Origin: a virus
Virus record (IMG/VR): IMGVR_UViG_3300046692_000200
Location: 1-58,691 of that record
Length of the DNA: 58,691 bases
Reading direction: 5' to 3' (one strand)
How positions within the stretch are numbered: position 1 is the stretch's first letter; each line of letters starts with the position of its first letter. The notes beneath the pieces were generated by a model. That model saw nothing but the letters and a program-made list of their open reading frames with translations. It was not told the origin of the DNA and ran no database searches. A program made the translations under genes and the position numbers. Below, piece after piece: positions 2,477 to 16,975 of this stretch.

Positions 2477-2658
2477 GCCGCGATCGCGAAGAAGTGATGA
2501 CCCTGGCCGTGGCGATACTGCACGCCAACACCGTCAAGGACGGCTTGCCGCTTGCCCGAAGCCGCCAAGTGGAAGGGCTGGTCAACGAATGCTTCGATCT
2601 CGCCGAAGCCATGCTCGATGAGCAGCAACGCCGCTACCCTGCCAAAAAGGACGCATGA
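2473..2658 (+). CDS. Small helical hypothetical protein
   Basis: 61 residues from a GTG start at 2473 that overlaps the preceding stop (GTGA). It is predicted mostly helical and acidic in the middle (LVNECFDLAEAML). It overlaps the rdgC-like gene by an ATGA, so it is probably co-translated with it. No family recognised; a small partner of the RdgC homologue is possible from position only. Confidence 0.75.
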   Translation: MSRDREEVMTLAVAILHANTVKDGLPLARSRQVEGLVNECFDLAEAMLDEQQRRYPAKKDA

Positions 2659-3710
2659 CCGTGCTAAAGACAATGCTGCTGTACCGCCTCACGAATGCCG
2701 ACCACATCGCGCTGCTCAACAACTGGGCCATGCTCAACGATGCCCTGGGCAACCAGCCCGAGTTCGAGCCCACCGGTTCGCAGTGGCGCGGCATCGGCTT
2801 CGCCCCTTACGCACCGTCGCTCAACGAGGAACTGGTGTGGTCCGGAGCCAACGGCGTGAACCTGTTCACCCTGATGATCCACGAGCGCAACCTCACCGCG
2901 GCCACGATCCGCGAGCATGTGCTGCTGCGCGGCAAGGTCATCGAGGAACGCGAGCAGCGCAAGGTGTACCGCAACGAGTATGCGCAGATCAAAGACGAGG
3001 TGATCGCTGAGCTGCTGCCCAAAGCGTTCCTCAAGCATCGCCGCATCCCCGCGCTGGTGATCGACGACCTGCTCATTGTAGGAGCGAGCAGCGCCAAGCT
3101 GGCCGAAGACTTCCTGTGCACCCTGCGCGAAGCCATGAACGGCCTGGCGGTGCGGCCACTGTCGACCAAGATGCCACCGGGCGAGGCGCTGAGCCGCCTG
3201 ATGCAAGAGCGCAAGGCCGGCGAGCTGCTACTGGGCGACACCGCCAAGCTGGCCAACGAGTTGAAGGACACCGTCACGTTCAAGGGCATCGACCTGGGCG
3301 AAGACGAGCCACAGAGCTACCTGCACAACTGCTTCGCCCCCAAAGAGCTGGCCCTGTTCCTCGGCCAAGACCTTTACTTCAAGCTGACCGACACCCTGAT
3401 ATTCAAGGGGATGAAATTCAGCGACAAGCTGATCGGCGATGCCTACCTCGATGCCGACGGCGACCACGCGGCCCTGATCGACGCCGACATCATCCTGACC
3501 ACCAACGTGGTGAAGCGCCTGGTGGCAGCGATCGCCGACCTGGCCGGTGAGGACCGCCCGCAAATCGTGGCCAGTGAGTCGGGGCTCAAGATGACCCACA
3601 TCAACAACGTGCCGCTCGAGGACCTGATGTCACCAGACGAGAAGCTGCGCAGCCTGCAGGAGCAATTCGCAGGGGCCGGCGCCGATATTGACGAAGACGA
3701 GGACTTCTAA
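2655..3710 (+). CDS. rdgC: RdgC-like recombination-associated DNA-binding protein
   Basis: 351 residues. The order of conserved segments matches bacterial RdgC: an N-terminal MLLYRL strand, a KDEVIAELLPKAF-type helix near residue 115-130, the LIVGASSAKLAEDFL segment, and a C-terminal KGMKFSD...DADIILTTN region. RdgC forms a ring dimer that binds double-stranded DNA without sequence specificity and limits RecA loading. The phage copy is longer than host RdgC (about 300 residues) and carries an acidic C-terminal extension ending DIDEDEDF. It overlaps the upstream gene by an ATGA. A plausible role is protecting or remodelling recombining phage DNA. Confidence 0.85.
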   Translation: MTVLKTMLLYRLTNADHIALLNNWAMLNDALGNQPEFEPTGSQWRGIGFAPYAPSLNEELVWSGANGVNLFTLMIHERNLTAATIREHVLLRGKVIEEREQRKVYRNEYAQIKDEVIAELLPKAFLKHRRIPALVIDDLLIVGASSAKLAEDFLCTLREAMNGLAVRPLSTKMPPGEALSRLMQERKAGELLLGDTAKLANELKDTVTFKGIDLGEDEPQSYLHNCFAPKELALFLGQDLYFKLTDTLIFKGMKFSDKLIGDAYLDADGDHAALIDADIILTTNVVKRLVAAIADLAGEDRPQIVASESGLKMTHINNVPLEDLMSPDEKLRSLQEQFAGAGADIDEDEDF

Positions 3711-3711
3711 A

Positions 3712-4026
3712 ATGCAAAAGATCGAGTTGGACGAAGGTGTACCGGTGACGCCGCCGCGCAAGTGCCGCTCGTTTAACGACCCCCGGGCCAAGCAACTGCT
3801 CGAGATGGACATCAACGTCGGGCACAACAGCTTCTTCCTGGTCGGCAAGACCAAGAAGGACGTGCGCAGCCTGGTGGCCCTGGGCAAACGCATCGGCGCC
3901 CACTTGATCGCCCGAGAGTTCCCCGTTGGAACCGATGCGGTCTACGACGAGGCGGGCGTCAGGGTCTGGCGGGTGAGCGAGGATAAGGTGCCTCGCCGCA
4001 AGGCCCACGAGGATGAGGACCTGTAA
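3712..4026 (+). CDS. Hypothetical protein with acidic -EDEDL tail
   Basis: 104 residues, starting one base after the rdgC stop; a start 24 nt upstream would sit inside rdgC. The N-terminus is acidic (MQKIELDEG), the middle contains ALGKRIGAHLIAREF, and the protein ends RKAHEDEDL. No family recognised. It is the last gene of the first early operon; a hairpin terminator follows within 15 nt. The acidic tail is not explained by an SD for a downstream gene because none is close. Confidence 0.85.
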   Translation: MQKIELDEGVPVTPPRKCRSFNDPRAKQLLEMDINVGHNSFFLVGKTKKDVRSLVALGKRIGAHLIAREFPVGTDAVYDEAGVRVWRVSEDKVPRRKAHEDEDL

Positions 4027-4039
4027 CGGCAACACGAAA

Positions 4040-4063
4040 AGGCTCGCTTAGGCGGGTCTTTTT
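4040..4063 (+). terminator. Rho-independent terminator
   Basis: An 8-bp stem (4040-4047 with 4052-4059, two G-U pairs) with loop TTAG, leading directly into TTTTT. It ends the PL1 operon and is immediately followed by the next promoter. Confidence 0.75.
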
Positions 4064-4068
4064 ATTTG

Positions 4069-4097
4069 TTGACACGCCTCACGGGTTTAATTAATGT
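4069..4097 (+). promoter_or_regulatory. Early promoter PL2
   Basis: -35 TTGACA (4069-4074), 17-bp spacer, -10 TAATGT (4092-4097). The spacer carries CGGGTTTA at the same offset as PL3 (8532). It drives the second early operon starting at 4137. Confidence 0.75.
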
Positions 4098-4136
4098 ACG
4101 CACGTTCATACACATAAACCAAAACGGTACACGATA

Positions 4137-4469
4137 ATGAATGATCACCACTTGGCCGACTGGCTCACCGATGTGCTGCGCACCCTGGAAGGGCGCCGGG
4201 TTCAAGAGAAGAACGCTGCGCGCAACTACGGCGAGATCGAATGGTACATCGACGCCGTCAAGGCGTGCGTGACCCGCATCCGCCTGCTGGAAAGCGAGGC
4301 CGCCGATAAGCTGCAGATGCGCGACAAGATCGCCCTGCAGATCCTGCCGAGCCTGAGCGGCCACGACGACATCGGCATGGCCATCGGTGAATCCCTGCGC
4401 ATCGCCGACCTGTACATCGAGGCGCGCAAAGAGCCAAGCAGCAAGACCATCCAGTCGGTGCGCCCATGA
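4137..4469 (+). CDS. Helical hypothetical protein
   Basis: 110 residues, first gene of the second early operon. Sequence suggests an all-helical protein (WLTDVLRTLEGRR; RIRLLESEAADKL). Its last codons overlap the next start (ATGA). No family recognised and no motifs of catalysis seen. Confidence 0.8.
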   Translation: MNDHHLADWLTDVLRTLEGRRVQEKNAARNYGEIEWYIDAVKACVTRIRLLESEAADKLQMRDKIALQILPSLSGHDDIGMAIGESLRIADLYIEARKEPSSKTIQSVRP

Positions 4470-4984
4470 CCAAGAAGTCAGAACTGCGCGAACAGATCGA
4501 GTTCCTGCAGCGGCAGAACGAAGCCCTGGCCACCACAAACGACACGCTCGAGTCGTGGCGCGCATCGTGGCTCAACGGCTACAGCTCGACAGACCAAGTC
4601 AAGCTGCAGACCACGCACAACGCCTTCACCGAGCTGCTGCAGAAACTCGGCGTGGACAACATGACCATGGCGGTTTACCGCATCGAGGCCCTGCTCAAGA
4701 ACGAGCATGCGGACAAGGCGATCTTGGCCGTCACTCAGGGGAAGGCCGCCGCCGAACAAAGCGTGCGCGTCCACCAACTGGCCATCAGGCAGCTTGAGTT
4801 CCAACGCGACAGTGCGCAGAAGCGGGAATTCGACACCGGCTTCGACCTGGACAACACCAAGGCGCGTTGCGGTGAGCTGGAAGAGCTGCTGCGCGAGCTG
4901 CTGGGTGGCATGCAAGGCCGCGCCACTCGCTCGACCGAGGAACTGATCAAGGTTATTACGCTGGTACTGGGTGACGAAAAATGA
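4466..4984 (+). CDS. Coiled-coil hypothetical protein
   Basis: 172 residues with a strong N-terminal heptad pattern (LREQIEFLQRQNEALATTND) and a second helical region toward the C-terminus (ELEELLRELLGG). Probably an elongated oligomer. ATGA overlaps on both sides place it in a coupled cistron chain. Function unknown. Confidence 0.8.
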   Translation: MTKKSELREQIEFLQRQNEALATTNDTLESWRASWLNGYSSTDQVKLQTTHNAFTELLQKLGVDNMTMAVYRIEALLKNEHADKAILAVTQGKAAAEQSVRVHQLAIRQLEFQRDSAQKREFDTGFDLDNTKARCGELEELLRELLGGMQGRATRSTEELIKVITLVLGDEK

Positions 4985-5687: not shown

Positions 5688-6382
5688 GCTGCGATTACTG
5701 CAAGTCGATCGGCGTTGTCGGTGGGTCGATGCCCTGGCCCAACGGCACCAGCCACGCGGCACCGTGCGATTACTGCACCAGCAGCCCGGCGTTGAAGTTC
5801 AAGCCCGGCGTCACCCCGTGGACCGGCGTTGTCATGCCCGTGCCTGAGTGGAACAGCACCGTCGATATGCCGGCCTTCTCTCTGTACGCCGAGCCCGACG
5901 TGGCCGGCGAGCGGGTGATCGTCGTTGTCGACCCGACCTGCCGCATGTGGTGCTGGGGTGAGGGCGGCAAGTACGCCATGAGCAAGCTGTTGATCGACGA
6001 GCTCACGGTGCTGGCCACCGATGTGATGTTCGACGGCCACAAGGAATATGCGTGCGGCATCGCGTTCGAGGGTGTGATGACTGGCGGCGACATCGCGCTG
6101 TACATGATGGTGCCCCTGCTGTCGCTTCTGGACGGCGTAGACACGCATCACCTTGGAACGAGGCGTCTTGACCTTGAAGTCGCCGTGAAGCGGGTAGGGG
6201 ACGCTCTCAGCTACACCCTGATACCGCGCATCATGCTCAAGGCCCGGCCGAAGGTCGTGCAGGCAGACATTGATCTGGCGTGCGATCGCCTAGGCGTCGA
6301 CTCGATCATGGTCAAACAGGTGCAAGGGTTTTGGGGTGTGACCCCGTGCTGGACCCGCGCCAAGCGTGAAGAGGACTTCTGA
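5684..6382 (+). CDS. Hypothetical protein, N-terminal C4 cluster, -REEDF tail
   Basis: 232 residues. Two CDYC motifs at about residues 3-6 and 28-31 form a likely four-cysteine zinc site. The remaining protein contains a hydrophobic beta segment (VIVVVDPTCRMWCW) and no recognised fold. It ends AKREEDF. The GAGGACTTCTGATG at the 3' end encodes the acidic tail, supplies a GAGG for the next gene and overlaps its start, so the tail could partly reflect translational coupling. Confidence 0.8.
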   Translation: MSCDYCKSIGVVGGSMPWPNGTSHAAPCDYCTSSPALKFKPGVTPWTGVVMPVPEWNSTVDMPAFSLYAEPDVAGERVIVVVDPTCRMWCWGEGGKYAMSKLLIDELTVLATDVMFDGHKEYACGIAFEGVMTGGDIALYMMVPLLSLLDGVDTHHLGTRRLDLEVAVKRVGDALSYTLIPRIMLKARPKVVQADIDLACDRLGVDSIMVKQVQGFWGVTPCWTRAKREEDF

Positions 6383-6771
6383 TGAGCCGACAACCCTATT
6401 ACATCCTGGTGTGCGGCGGCCGGCATTTCCACGACTACGACTTCCTCAAGGAAACGCTGCACGACTGCCTGCTGAGCGTGCGTGACCACTTCCCCGATCG
6501 GCGCATGGTGATCGTCCACGGTGACGCGCTCGGCGCCGATAAGCTGGCCGGGACCTGGGCGAACACGTTCAACGTGCCGTGCTTCAAGATCCCGGCCGAG
6601 TGGGACCTTTGGGGCACGAGTGCGGCCGGCCCGATCCGCAACGTGCAGATGCTCGACTGGCTGCCGATCGACCGGGTTGTCGCCTTCACGGGTGGTTCGG
6701 GCACGGCCAGCATGGCGGCGCTCGCCAAGGCCAGGGGCATCCCGGTCACGCACGCGGTGCAGGACTTCTGA
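6382..6771 (+). CDS. SLOG-domain (YspA-like) protein
   Basis: 129 residues. The N-terminal CGGRHFHDYDF and the VIVHGDALGADKLAG segment match the cpYpsA/YspA branch of the SLOG superfamily, whose members bind nucleotides or nucleotide-derived ligands in a Rossmann-like fold. The GFTGGSGTASM-type region (FTGGSGTASM) is the usual second glycine-rich loop. Ends AVQDF. Start and stop overlap neighbours by TGATG. In phages such proteins are common and their ligand is generally unknown; a role in nucleotide signalling or defence evasion is only a hypothesis. Confidence 0.85.
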   Translation: MSRQPYYILVCGGRHFHDYDFLKETLHDCLLSVRDHFPDRRMVIVHGDALGADKLAGTWANTFNVPCFKIPAEWDLWGTSAAGPIRNVQMLDWLPIDRVVAFTGGSGTASMAALAKARGIPVTHAVQDF

Positions 6772-8602: not shown

Positions 8603-9805
8603 ATGACCATCTGGAATCTGATTGCCCGCACCGCCGCCCGCCCGGCAGTCGCAAACTGGCTCATCCGCCGCGCAATCAAGACCCCCTTCTCGCATCTCCC
8701 GTCCAACGATGACCCGAGCTACATGGCTCGCTACTGGCTCTTCAACCCGTACCCGGAAAGCTCGAGCGATCGCAAGCGCTGGCAGTTCCCGTGGTCGATC
8801 CGCATCCATCACATCAAGCGTGAAGACCACGACCGTGCGCTGCACGATCACCCGTGGAACGCCCGCACGATAATCCTGAAAGGCTGGTACACCGAGAAGC
8901 GCCGGTTGGAGCTGACCGACCCGATGCTGACCCACGCGCTTGCCGACCTGGCCAAGATCATGCCGGTGACCAACGCCGAAGCGACCCAGCACTTCCTTCG
9001 CCAACCCGGCGACACCGCGAAGCTGGCCTACAACGAGTACCACACGATCACCAGCGTGAGCGACGACGGCGTGTGGACCTTGTTCATCAGCGGCCCATGG
9101 CGTGGCGTGTGGGGCTTTCTCGTCGACGGCGTGAAGATCCCATGGAAAACCTACCTCGGTGTTGACGCGCCGGCCCCGATCGAGGGCTCAGCTCTCGAAG
9201 TCGGCACCGCGGTTCATCAGGCGATCGCGACCGGTGTGGGCCGCCCAAGTCTGACCCCTGAGCAAGAGCATTTGCTGGGCTTGTGGCAGCAGCGCTTGGA
9301 CAACCACGGCCAAACCCTGACGGCCGAGCAGCACCAGACCCTGGCCCGGTGCGAACAACGATCGACCGATCAGTTGGTGATTCGGGACTTCGGATCTGAT
9401 CGCCGCAAGTCTGACCCGGTGGCCAAAGAGTTCGCCAACATGTATGTCGAGGTGGTCAACGAGCGGGGCCGCGTGATCGAGCATCACAACGTCGTGCCGA
9501 TCGGCAAAATGGGGACGCCTGACACACTGCGACCGTCGAACCTGCCGATGTGGGACTCGTGCACGGGCCAAGCCGCCGATGCGGAAGAGGACGCCAACCA
9601 TCAATTGGTAGCCTATGCCGGGGCGATCGCTAGCCTCAAGCCGGCCAAGCAGCGCCCATGCCACCCGCTGACCAACATCGCCAAGTGGCAGCATGGCTGC
9701 TCGTGCGCCCCAACGAACAACCCGGTCGAGTGCAGCGACTGCACCCTGGGCCTGATCGCCAGCATCGAGGCGTGGTTTAAGTGGCAGCAAGGCGGTGCGC
9801 AATGA
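8603..9805 (+). CDS. Cupin-like protein with C-terminal cysteine cluster
   Basis: 400 residues. Residues ~60-195 read like a cupin barrel: IHHIKREDHDRALHDHPW (metal-binding His/Asp cluster), ILKGWYTE, HFLRQPGDTAKL, then a second motif with H-T-I and TLFISGPWRG-WGF. The C-terminal ~200 residues are helical and end with CSC...CSDC, a probable zinc site. The substrate cannot be told from sequence; members may be sugar-nucleotide epimerase-like or oxygenase-like. First gene of the PL3 operon, with weak SD GAGGAT. Confidence 0.65.
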   Translation: MTIWNLIARTAARPAVANWLIRRAIKTPFSHLPSNDDPSYMARYWLFNPYPESSSDRKRWQFPWSIRIHHIKREDHDRALHDHPWNARTIILKGWYTEKRRLELTDPMLTHALADLAKIMPVTNAEATQHFLRQPGDTAKLAYNEYHTITSVSDDGVWTLFISGPWRGVWGFLVDGVKIPWKTYLGVDAPAPIEGSALEVGTAVHQAIATGVGRPSLTPEQEHLLGLWQQRLDNHGQTLTAEQHQTLARCEQRSTDQLVIRDFGSDRRKSDPVAKEFANMYVEVVNERGRVIEHHNVVPIGKMGTPDTLRPSNLPMWDSCTGQAADAEEDANHQLVAYAGAIASLKPAKQRPCHPLTNIAKWQHGCSCAPTNNPVECSDCTLGLIASIEAWFKWQQGGAQ

Positions 9806-13328: not shown

Positions 13329-13540
13329 TGACCCGCGCCGAGAAAAAGGAGCTGCGCCAACTGGCCCGGCAAGCTGCAGCGAAAGAGATGGCCAAGTTCT
13401 CGAGGAAGCCTGAAACGCTGTTCCCCGACGCCACGCCAGAAGAACTGGTGATCATCGGGCGGGAGCTCAGCGCGGTGGGGGATCGGATCGACTGGGGCCA
13501 GTGGGCCGCGAAGGGCGAGGCTGCAGAACCGGAAACATAA
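13328..13540 (+). CDS. Small helical hypothetical protein
   Basis: 70 residues from the ATG at 13328 (TGATG with the preceding gene). A strongly charged helix (AEKKELRQLARQAAAKEMAK) leads into an acidic C-terminal half ending AEPET. Last protein gene before the ~530-nt structured block. Function unknown. Confidence 0.75.
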   Translation: MTRAEKKELRQLARQAAAKEMAKFSRKPETLFPDATPEELVIIGRELSAVGDRIDWGQWAAKGEAAEPET

Positions 13541-13544
13541 GCTA

Positions 13545-14075
13545 TCGTAAACGGTGCCGGCCCAAGCAAGCGCCGGCCCAAACAATTAAGCCCCACCGAA
13601 GTGAGGCTTAACGGACTGGCGGATGTTGCAAGCATCTCCAGCCAAGGTCCTCGGGAAATCTGGTTTAGCGGCCGGGTTCGAGGTCCTGGGATTAGCTTGG
13701 CCCGAAAATGGCCAGATGTCAAAGTCCCGTGGCCCATCCCGAGTAATCCTTCTTCCCGGCACTTGGAATCATGATGCTGTGGGTCCGGGAACGTATAGCC
13801 GCCTATCACGGGGATCTTCTCAGGGCGGCCGGTATGGCCAGTAGGCGCGAACCCGAAAGGGTCGAGAAGGCAATGACAGGGCGGTGCTATCTAAGCCAGC
13901 CAAGGGCGCCGTCACTGCCTCAAAACCCGCCACTGACGGACGCCGAGAAGGGCCGGGGACGCGGCGACACCAACCCCCGAAAGTTCGTGATGCCTGCTGG
14001 TAGTGATGCGGGAGAAATCCGTAACATGAGGCAAGAAATCATCTTAAATGCCCGTCATTTTTGAGGCATTTTTGA
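13545..14075 (+). ncRNA. Candidate large structured non-coding RNA
   Basis: A ~530-nt gap in an otherwise gapless cistron chain. Visible helices include 13586-13592/13605-13611 (TTAAGCC arms), 13616-13625/13633-13641, 13658-13663/13712-13717, 13689-13694/13744-13749, 13753-13759/13785-13791 (TTCCCGG arms), a closing helix 13816-13821/13864-13869 enclosing two hairpins, one being ACCC-GAAA-GGGT (GNRA tetraloop, 13851-13862), and 13869-13877/13911-13919. It ends in a terminator-like hairpin at 14046-14074. The open frames inside look unlike phage proteins. Size and phage context recall large ornate RNAs such as GOLLD and ROOL, but I see no sequence match. Confidence 0.6.
14046..14074 (+). terminator. 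Terminator at end of RNA candidate
   Basis: A perfect 7-bp stem AAATGCC (14046-14052) with GGCATTT (14065-14071), continuing into TTTTT. It closes the structured block and probably ends the left early transcript; one small gene lies beyond it. Confidence 0.7.
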
Positions 14076-14160
14076 GGGGCTGGCCTGCCAGTGATCTTTA
14101 GCACGGCGGCGCCCAAAAGAAACAAATTCAAGCAATCCAAGACCATGGGGAGTGATCGTG

Positions 14161-14367
14161 ATGCGCAATGAGAAGATTGAGTTGGACAAGAGGGAGTTGC
14201 GGTTGATCAACAACCTGCTTGATTCGTCAGCCCCGAATGTGACTGAGCGGTTCAACGCGCTTTGTCGCCAGATCCTGACCAGGAAGGGAGTGGGGGACCC
14301 GAAGCCCCCGTTTGAAGTGCTGATAACTGCAGGTGGCCACACCACCAAGCTCATCTATTCGGTGTGA
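14161..14367 (+). CDS. Small hypothetical protein
   Basis: 68 residues from the ATG at 14161, with GGGGAG eight bases upstream; an in-frame GTG at 14152 is less likely. Helical N-terminal half (LDKRELRLINNLLD), then VLITAGGHTTKLIYSV. Converges on the lysis genes and overlaps them by 17 nt at its 3' end. Function unknown. Confidence 0.65.
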   Translation: MRNEKIELDKRELRLINNLLDSSAPNVTERFNALCRQILTRKGVGDPKPPFEVLITAGGHTTKLIYSV

Positions 14368-16231: not shown

Positions 16232-16975
16232 TTACACGGTGATACCACGGTTGGCGTAAAACGCTTTTACCGATTTGTACAGTTTCGCCAACTCGTCGGC
16301 TGTCAAAACACGGTCATAAATGGCGGCGTACATGCCGGTGAATGCCGCGGTGCCGGCCAGCGCGCCGTAGGTGGAACCGATGCGGAAGGTTTGCGCCAGG
16401 TCAAACTCGAAGCCGGCAGCCAGGGCCACCTCACCCGACAGGCCGGTGGTCTCGTTCTTCAATACCACTTTGCGCGCAGCGTTGTCCTGCACCAGACTCA
16501 CGGCCACGGGTGCGCCTACGGTCGTATCCAAGGAGATCGATAAGTTGGACGTGGCCAGGGTCGAAGCGTTGTATGACGCCACGGTTGCGGTGAGCTTGCC
16601 GGACGGGTTGACACCAACGCTGGTGCCGAACGTGGTGCCGCCTCGTCCGCTCTTCGGTGCCGATCCGAAGTTGGATACGAAGTGGTTCCAGGCGGCAGGG
16701 TTGGTTGGGATAGCCACGGCAAAAATCGTCATGTTAGCCGTGTGTTCTGCCGCGCTTCGCAGGTAGTTGGCCAAGTTGGTGAAGGTCACGCCGTTCGCAC
16801 CGACAACCGGGGCGCCGGTTACCACGGCAGACGGTTTGCTGGCGGCCAGGTTGCGTGCAAGGGTCGACGCATCGCCGCCCAGGTAGTTCATGTATTCAAG
16901 CGACCCCGCAACAGGCGGGATGAAACCCACGTTATTCAGGGAGAAGTCGCCGTCGACCAGTAGTTGTACGCCCAT
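16232..16975 (-). CDS. Tail-associated protein, lectin-like
   Basis: 247 residues. The layout (TMTIFAVAIPTN-like strand NMTIFAVAIPTN, repeated short strands, and a C-terminal YDRVLTADELAKLYKSVKAFY helix) is typical of concanavalin A/LamG-type domains in phage tail proteins. It lies directly downstream of the tailspike, so it may be a receptor- or glycan-binding accessory. No catalytic residues recognised. Confidence 0.6.
   Translation of the reverse strand: MGVQLLVDGDFSLNNVGFIPPVAGSLEYMNYLGGDASTLARNLAASKPSAVVTGAPVVGANGVTFTNLANYLRSAAEHTANMTIFAVAIPTNPAAWNHFVSNFGSAPKSGRGGTTFGTSVGVNPSGKLTATVASYNASTLATSNLSISLDTTVGAPVAVSLVQDNAARKVVLKNETTGLSGEVALAAGFEFDLAQTFRIGSTYGALAGTAAFTGMYAAIYDRVLTADELAKLYKSVKAFYANRGITV

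Follow-up and report, generated by a model that had tools for sequence, protein, structure and literature searches.

A probable ColE1-like plasmid replication origin, containing the PAGEV RNA, captured by a Casjensviridae-like phage

Background

Replication of plasmid ColE1 is primed by RNA: RNA II folds and forms an R-loop with the template, RNase H cuts it and DNA polymerase I extends it, and the antisense RNA I, whose specificity depends on its loops, limits priming. GOLLD and ROOL are large structured RNAs associated with phages. ColE1-like origins of the CLV type are carried by Vibrionaceae plasmids, and PMC5703827, citing Pan, Leung & Gu (2010), maps the CLV origin of plasmid pSDH-2 (KY486774) to orf7 and half of orf8 (3702-4123), an assignment made there by similarity to experimentally studied plasmids. 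Three stem-loops in the antisense RNA of Enterobacterales ColE1 plasmids and two in that of Vibrionales were described in PMC8683028, in which one Pseudomonas ColE1 plasmid was found and the authors asked whether the sensitivity of their method fell short. Among phages, cluster A mycobacteriophages, which are temperate and carry parABS, have RNA-based prophage origins (Wetzel et al. 2020, PMC7157519).

In this study, a virus record of 58,691 nt (IMG/VR record IMGVR_UViG_3300046692_000200; this whole stretch is called the window) was analyzed, focusing on a block in which an initial annotation, made from the letters alone, had proposed a large phage RNA similar to GOLLD and ROOL or of a new class. 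The block is the Rfam RNA PAGEV plus conserved flanks, very probably a plasmid RNA-primed replication origin and no new giant RNA. We estimate at roughly 85% the probability that it represents a ColE1-like, protein-independent plasmid origin (the CLV type of Vibrionaceae with its sister type in Pseudomonas) that was captured by a Casjensviridae-like phage.

Identification of the block

The gene upstream of the block ends at 13540, and the next one begins with a GTG at 14152 or, if homology is followed, with an ATG at 14161, leaving a gene-free cassette at 13541-14160 (+) between two small phage genes. Stops were present in all three forward frames, and the longest same-strand ORF in the block (13771-14064, 97 aa) had no PHROG match, which confirmed the earlier statement that ~530 nt are without a plausible protein.

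The Rfam family PAGEV (RF03037) matched 13757-13995(+) with 98.3 bits (E 7e-23, gathering threshold 61.1) over model positions 1-185, so that the window copy shares the full-length model and its consensus helices. The model corresponds to about half of the conserved unit, which runs in the window from about 13586 to 14091; it covers neither the 5' antisense/leader domain (13586-13756) nor the 3' origin-proximal part (13996-14091). RF03037 is listed in Rfam as 'Gene; sRNA' only, and the window copy resides in a phage. The proposal of a structured non-coding RNA was thus right, with nearly right borders, and its class was wrong, whether taken as GOLLD/ROOL-like or as new. The block is like GOLLD and ROOL in being a large phage-associated structured RNA; however, the Rfam search that had been suggested as a check gave no match to them at gathering or at E <= 5, and these and other large RNAs were ruled out. 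Canonical RNAI (RF00106) also had no match in the window at E <= 5, with the ColE1 control matching, and no tRNA or tmRNA was found in the window scan. Weak minus-strand matches to istR and RsmY were judged to reflect a common terminator hairpin only.

Folding statistics and comparative support for structure

The MFE of 13541-14100 was -218.7 (z = -1.06), with 14 of 100 shuffles as good, and 6-bp inverted repeats within 60 nt numbered 14 compared with 9.3 in shuffles, 13 of 100 of which had as many. The excess of pairing described for the block therefore did not stand; with a single-sequence fold no better than shuffles, pairing noticed by eye is not evidence by itself, and folding of this kind was rejected as evidence. 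A terminator scan of the block passed no terminator-like site. The complementary arms listed in the initial annotation were located exactly where they had been placed (TTAAGCC at 13586 and GGCTTAA at 13605, TTCCCGG at 13753 and CCGGGAA at 13785, CTTCTC at 13816 and GAGAAG at 13864), as was the GAAA hairpin at 13851, and the long-range pairs 13658/13712 and 13689/13744 had no conserved counterpart in the alignment inspected by eye.

Real structure was instead supported by comparison, namely by the covariance-model match of 98 bits and by the helix 13798-13803/13824-13829 (GCCGCC/GGCGGC), which closes a hairpin at 13798-13829 (+) with a G-rich loop and GGGG at 13810-13813. This helix was paired in 84 of 84 cells (14 sequences), with changes on both sides at five of its six pairs; none of 500 shuffles was as good, and slid versions of it lose pairing. 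CTTCTC (13816-13821) and GAGAAG (13864-13869) would form a pseudoknot with the G-loop hairpin. The corresponding places in other copies carry TCTC/GAGA, TTCC/GGAA or GCTC/GAGC, and the pseudoknot is unproven because the register shifts between copies.

PAGEV units on plasmids

The same ~540-nt unit was found on small Pseudomonas, Vibrio and Marinobacter plasmids, with an element order that agrees between the window and the plasmids across ~540 nt. BLASTn of the block retrieved 11 plasmid records, all from Pseudomonas, at 77% identity or slightly less over 13751-14005 and with no annotated gene underneath, and the Rfam consensus used as a query against PLSDB gave PAGEV-like matches on 43 records, mostly small Vibrio, Pseudomonas and Photobacterium plasmids. 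A paired-pattern search of 84,980 species genomes returned six loci, all on Pseudomonas contigs of 3.7-7.5 kb; the PAGEV model matched five of 299 Pseudomonas genomes, exclusively on contigs of 3.7-7.5 kb. Compared with the single Pseudomonas plasmid of PMC8683028, the model recovers a whole group of such plasmids.

The PAGEV plasmids have the RNA unit in common and not their genes. The ORFs of a 2,081-bp V. parahaemolyticus plasmid match HicA and HicB only, and the annotation of a 2,285-bp V. harveyi plasmid consists of a single hypothetical protein; no replication families were found among the tested ORFs of these two or, by annotation only, on others of the smallest plasmids, and the smallest plasmids with the unit thus have no recognizable initiator of their own. 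As HicA and HicB are all that the 2,081-bp plasmid recognizably encodes, its replicon is very likely the PAGEV RNA unit. On pSDH-2, PAGEV matches 3749-3834, inside the CLV origin as mapped in PMC5703827. A 194-kb V. campbellii plasmid (NZ_CP026317.1), described as a ColE1 co-integrate (PMC8683028), also carries a PAGEV match. Because of the smallest plasmids without a Rep match, the pSDH-2 overlap and the ColE1 co-integrate, PAGEV was read as the 3' half of a CLV/ColE1-like RNA II primer. In the literature searched, coverage of which was incomplete, no earlier statement linking PAGEV to a CLV/ColE1-like origin was found, and PAGEV was not in use there as an RNA name. An RNA known from Rfam only as an sRNA thereby gains a testable function, as RNA II of ColE1-like CLV and Pseudomonas plasmids.

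It is quite improbable that PAGEV is a trans-acting regulatory sRNA of plasmids and phages whose presence on small plasmids is incidental, replication being due to unrecognized proteins or DNA elements. The Rfam type would agree with such a role, small hypothetical proteins on some plasmids could be unrecognized initiators, and a 'protein rep' is among the annotations of the 77-kb Pseudomonas plasmid pA62H2, but PAGEV is what the two smallest plasmids have in common, the CLV origin of pSDH-2 was mapped at its place, and the RNA I/RNA II architecture, promoters and spacing agree with ColE1 (see below).

A related published result concerns pLz4W, a PAGEV plasmid whose copy number rises about four-fold without RNase R at 4 C (PMC11375266), which would fit RNA-controlled copy number; the authors of that work favor a toxin-antitoxin route, and nuclease-dead RNase R also restores the normal copy number. 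The XbaI REP fragment of pA4J1 (PMC6896180) was not used as evidence, since pA4J1 has two XbaI sites and the identity of the cloned fragment was ambiguous from the text.

Some further features of these plasmids were recorded. The 31-kb Pseudomonas saxonica plasmid NZ_CP142034.1 bears two full PAGEV units (950-1188 and 16486-16724), which suggests a plasmid co-integrate. On P. fragi plasmids, a ~230-bp segment downstream of PAGEV (4247-4480 of record L002) recurs without the PAGEV part on other Pseudomonas plasmids at 72-80% identity, in part up to 92%, and is perhaps a recombination or transfer site. A diverged PAGEV copy at 1556-1825 of pA62H2 (31.9 bits, below the cut-off) adjoins a ParA gene.

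Architecture of the window copy

The alignment of units comprised 18 copies, and its conservation extends far past the borders of the Rfam model. An RNA I-like antisense RNA of about 100 nt with three stem-loops is predicted at 13583-13687 (-), as judged from the minus-strand fold (13575-13692) and from the geometry of ColE1 RNA I (749-645(-), an RF00106 match), which it mirrors. Its putative promoter at 13694-13722 (-), TTGACA(13722-13717)-N17-CAAGCT(13699-13694), was the best-scoring minus-strand site, with 3% of shuffles as good. The aligned promoters read TGGACA/TAGACA-N17-CAGAAT on Pseudomonas plasmids and TTGAAG-N17/18-TATCAT in Vibrio. The candidate terminator hairpin of the antisense RNA, TTAAGCCTCAC-TTCG-GTGGGGCTTAA at 13586-13611 (-), has a stem that is complete on the minus strand only, with a C-A mismatch on the plus strand being G-U on the minus strand, and differs from the plasmid hairpins by both-side changes. 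The opposing candidate RNA I signals of the window consist of a terminator hairpin and a perfect -35 with a weak -10.

A use of this antisense half against plasmids was considered, in which expression of RNA I or of the RNA II leader during infection would block the replication of a resident PAGEV plasmid by incompatibility. The kept terminator and intact -35 speak for such a device, which we nevertheless regard as improbable, since a lytic cycle is short for plasmid dilution and the antisense loops of the window are unlike those of known plasmids.

On the plus strand, the predicted RNA II-like primer begins with a leader stem-loop, GGaCTGG...CCAGCC (13614-13641 (+)), whose pairs covary among the plasmid, phage and Marinobacter copies, followed by a conserved leader hairpin, GGTCCTCG...CGAGGTCC (13646-13686 (+)), which was aligned in seven Pseudomonas-type copies and lies outside the Rfam model. 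The PAGEV RNA proper (13757-13995 (+)) includes the near-invariant block CTTGGAATCATGATG (13762-13776 (+)), with its ColE1 RNA II counterpart TTGGACTCAAGACG at 878, and the covarying G-loop hairpin. A weak stem, AAATGCC/GGCATTT, runs into a T run at 14047-14073 (+), the final stem of the initial annotation, and this T-rich stretch aligns in other copies. The origin-proximal GGGG at 14076 and the hairpin CTGGC-CT-GCCAG behind it (together 14076-14091 (+)) were assigned by spacing as the putative site of R-loop formation and primer switch, immediately before the origin; the arms of the hairpin vary between copies, yet pair in those inspected. The distance from TCAnGATG to the origin-proximal GGGG is 286-319 nt in 18 of 18 copies and 307 nt in the window, and GGGGGG of ColE1 is about 291 nt from TCAAGACG.

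A search for an RNA II promoter ahead of the RNA I terminator gave no recognizable site in the window (score 0.8), and the claim made here is therefore a captured ColE1-like unit and not a proven autonomous replicon. The sense promoter of CLV plasmids, identical in ColE1 and pSDH-2 (TTGAGA-N17-TAATCT), is without a counterpart in the window. Of the two sources of transcription proposed earlier, the phage operon is the likelier, because no sense-strand promoter of the block's own was found.

Comparison with ColE1, CLV and mycobacteriophage origins

The order, spacing and polarity of the ColE1 RNA II/RNA I elements are as in the window, with the predicted antisense terminator on the left followed by the TTGGA block, the G-rich loop and the origin-proximal G run, whereas significant sequence similarity and an RF00106 match of the window copy are lacking. 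Direct similarity of the window to ColE1 was not significant, Smith-Waterman comparison giving z 1.2 and nhmmer no match. Vibrio CLV plasmids, with Smith-Waterman z values of about 3-5, carry the link to ColE1, and the case for a ColE1 relationship depends on a chain from the window through Pseudomonas and CLV plasmids to ColE1. CLV origins have the convergent RNA I/RNA II layout predicted for the window; the PAGEV core that coincides with the mapped pSDH-2 origin and the covarying helix provide the conserved folded core of an RNA II primer region. The Pseudomonas-type units, including that of the window, have a predicted antisense RNA with three stem-loops, like ColE1 of Enterobacterales and in contrast to the two of Vibrionales (PMC8683028). 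The cluster A mycobacteriophage origins, likened here by description, are non-coding RNA regions on which these phages depend for replication in place of a Rep protein, as proposed for the window; those phages are temperate with parABS, whereas no partition or lysogeny genes were found in the window phage.

Phage context and distribution

The window is a single virus record that has a 156-bp terminal repeat, as expected of a closed genome. Its genes for terminase, portal, primase-polymerase, DNA polymerase and exonuclease assign it to the vicinity of Casjensviridae, with Pseudomonas phage vB_Pae-SS2019XI as the closest named relative by terminase (69%). Integrase, parA/parB, plasmid Rep and repressor families were not detected in the ORFs scanned, many of which have no assigned function. 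A P1-like phage-plasmid was rejected, as partition, replication-protein and lysogeny genes were absent from the ORFs scanned.

The flanking genes have homologues at 5965-6171 and 6164-6388 of a diverged relative (contig L073), where an overlap of 8 nt leaves no DNA between them, and the downstream flanking gene matches its homologue with E 9e-17 and 48% identity. With no block between the overlapping genes of the relative, the block of the window looks inserted, and either insertion in the window lineage or loss in that of the relative may account for the difference. No PAGEV over the cut-off was found in 31 related phage records, many of them partial, which indicates that this phage group does not need it. 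A complete PAGEV unit of 89.5 bits was also present in a second viral contig (G001, 64.6 kb), where it fills a gap with a tail-fibre-like gene on one side and, on the other, the gene that precedes the terminase, and the window terminase has no match in it. In annotated phages, BLASTn gave no match to the window unit and only short matches of 27-47 nt to that of the second contig. Degenerate-pattern matches in 15 viral contigs were rejected, all being below the cut-off. At least two phage contigs that are unrelated to each other thus appear to have acquired this plasmid origin.

A chimeric plasmid/phage assembly might be suspected, since the record comes from a public virus-contig collection and is not a finished isolate genome. 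We consider this very improbable: the plasmid-like DNA amounts to only ~600 bp without plasmid genes, the phage genes on both sides are ordered as in the relative, an analogous unit is present in an unrelated phage contig, and the terminal repeat is that expected of a closed genome. Capture of a plasmid origin is suggested, at the level of sequence comparison, by the homology to plasmid units, the kept helices, the positions of the antisense promoter and terminator, the spacing of the G runs and the insertion between genes that abut in the relative.

Proposed mechanism and role in the phage

In the proposed mechanism, an RNA II of ~450-500 nt, read rightward, would fold, and its G-rich loop and origin-proximal GGGG would hybridize with C-rich template DNA; RNase H would then cleave RNA II at the R-loop and DNA polymerase I would extend the primer. 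RNA I of ~100 nt, read leftward from about 13687 to 13583, would pair with the RNA II leader and limit priming. Read-through of the rightward phage operon may supply RNA II, which would prime replication in infected cells.

Use of the unit by the phage, be it for additional or early initiation at an R-loop or for persistence in the manner of a plasmid, is in our analysis about as probable as not. A captured origin could also be a non-functional relic or hitchhiker of plasmid recombination under no selection, a possibility that we rate as real but rather doubtful. The missing sense promoter, the degenerate RNA I -10, the patchy presence, with related phages lacking PAGEV, and the absence of partition, integrase, Rep and repressor genes from the ORFs scanned would favor a relic. 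Use would be favored by key helices that are intact, with compensatory changes, despite ~23% divergence of the core, which could predate capture, and by the intact unit in a second, unrelated phage contig. A more specific proposal is put forward tentatively, as possible although not probable: a virulent Casjensviridae-like Pseudomonas phage and, independently, an unrelated phage may have adopted a ColE1-type origin that is driven by phage transcription and partly freed from RNA I control, either to start replication at an R-loop or to persist like a plasmid. With a protein-free plasmid origin recognized in a phage, borrowing of R-loop origins between plasmids and virulent phages becomes testable. 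The GC skew of the window reaches its lowest value around 8-10 kb and not at 14 kb.

Several other features of this phage group were recorded. Four terminase relatives (L048, L051, L052 and L053; 45-62 kb) bear names that we read as those of isolate genomes, which hints that members of this group, considered lytic, may also occur as prophages or in a carrier state. The left arm of the window encodes an RdgC-like recombination-associated exonuclease (2655-3710) and a protein (8603-9805) whose N-terminal half matches the cysteine-dioxygenase family.
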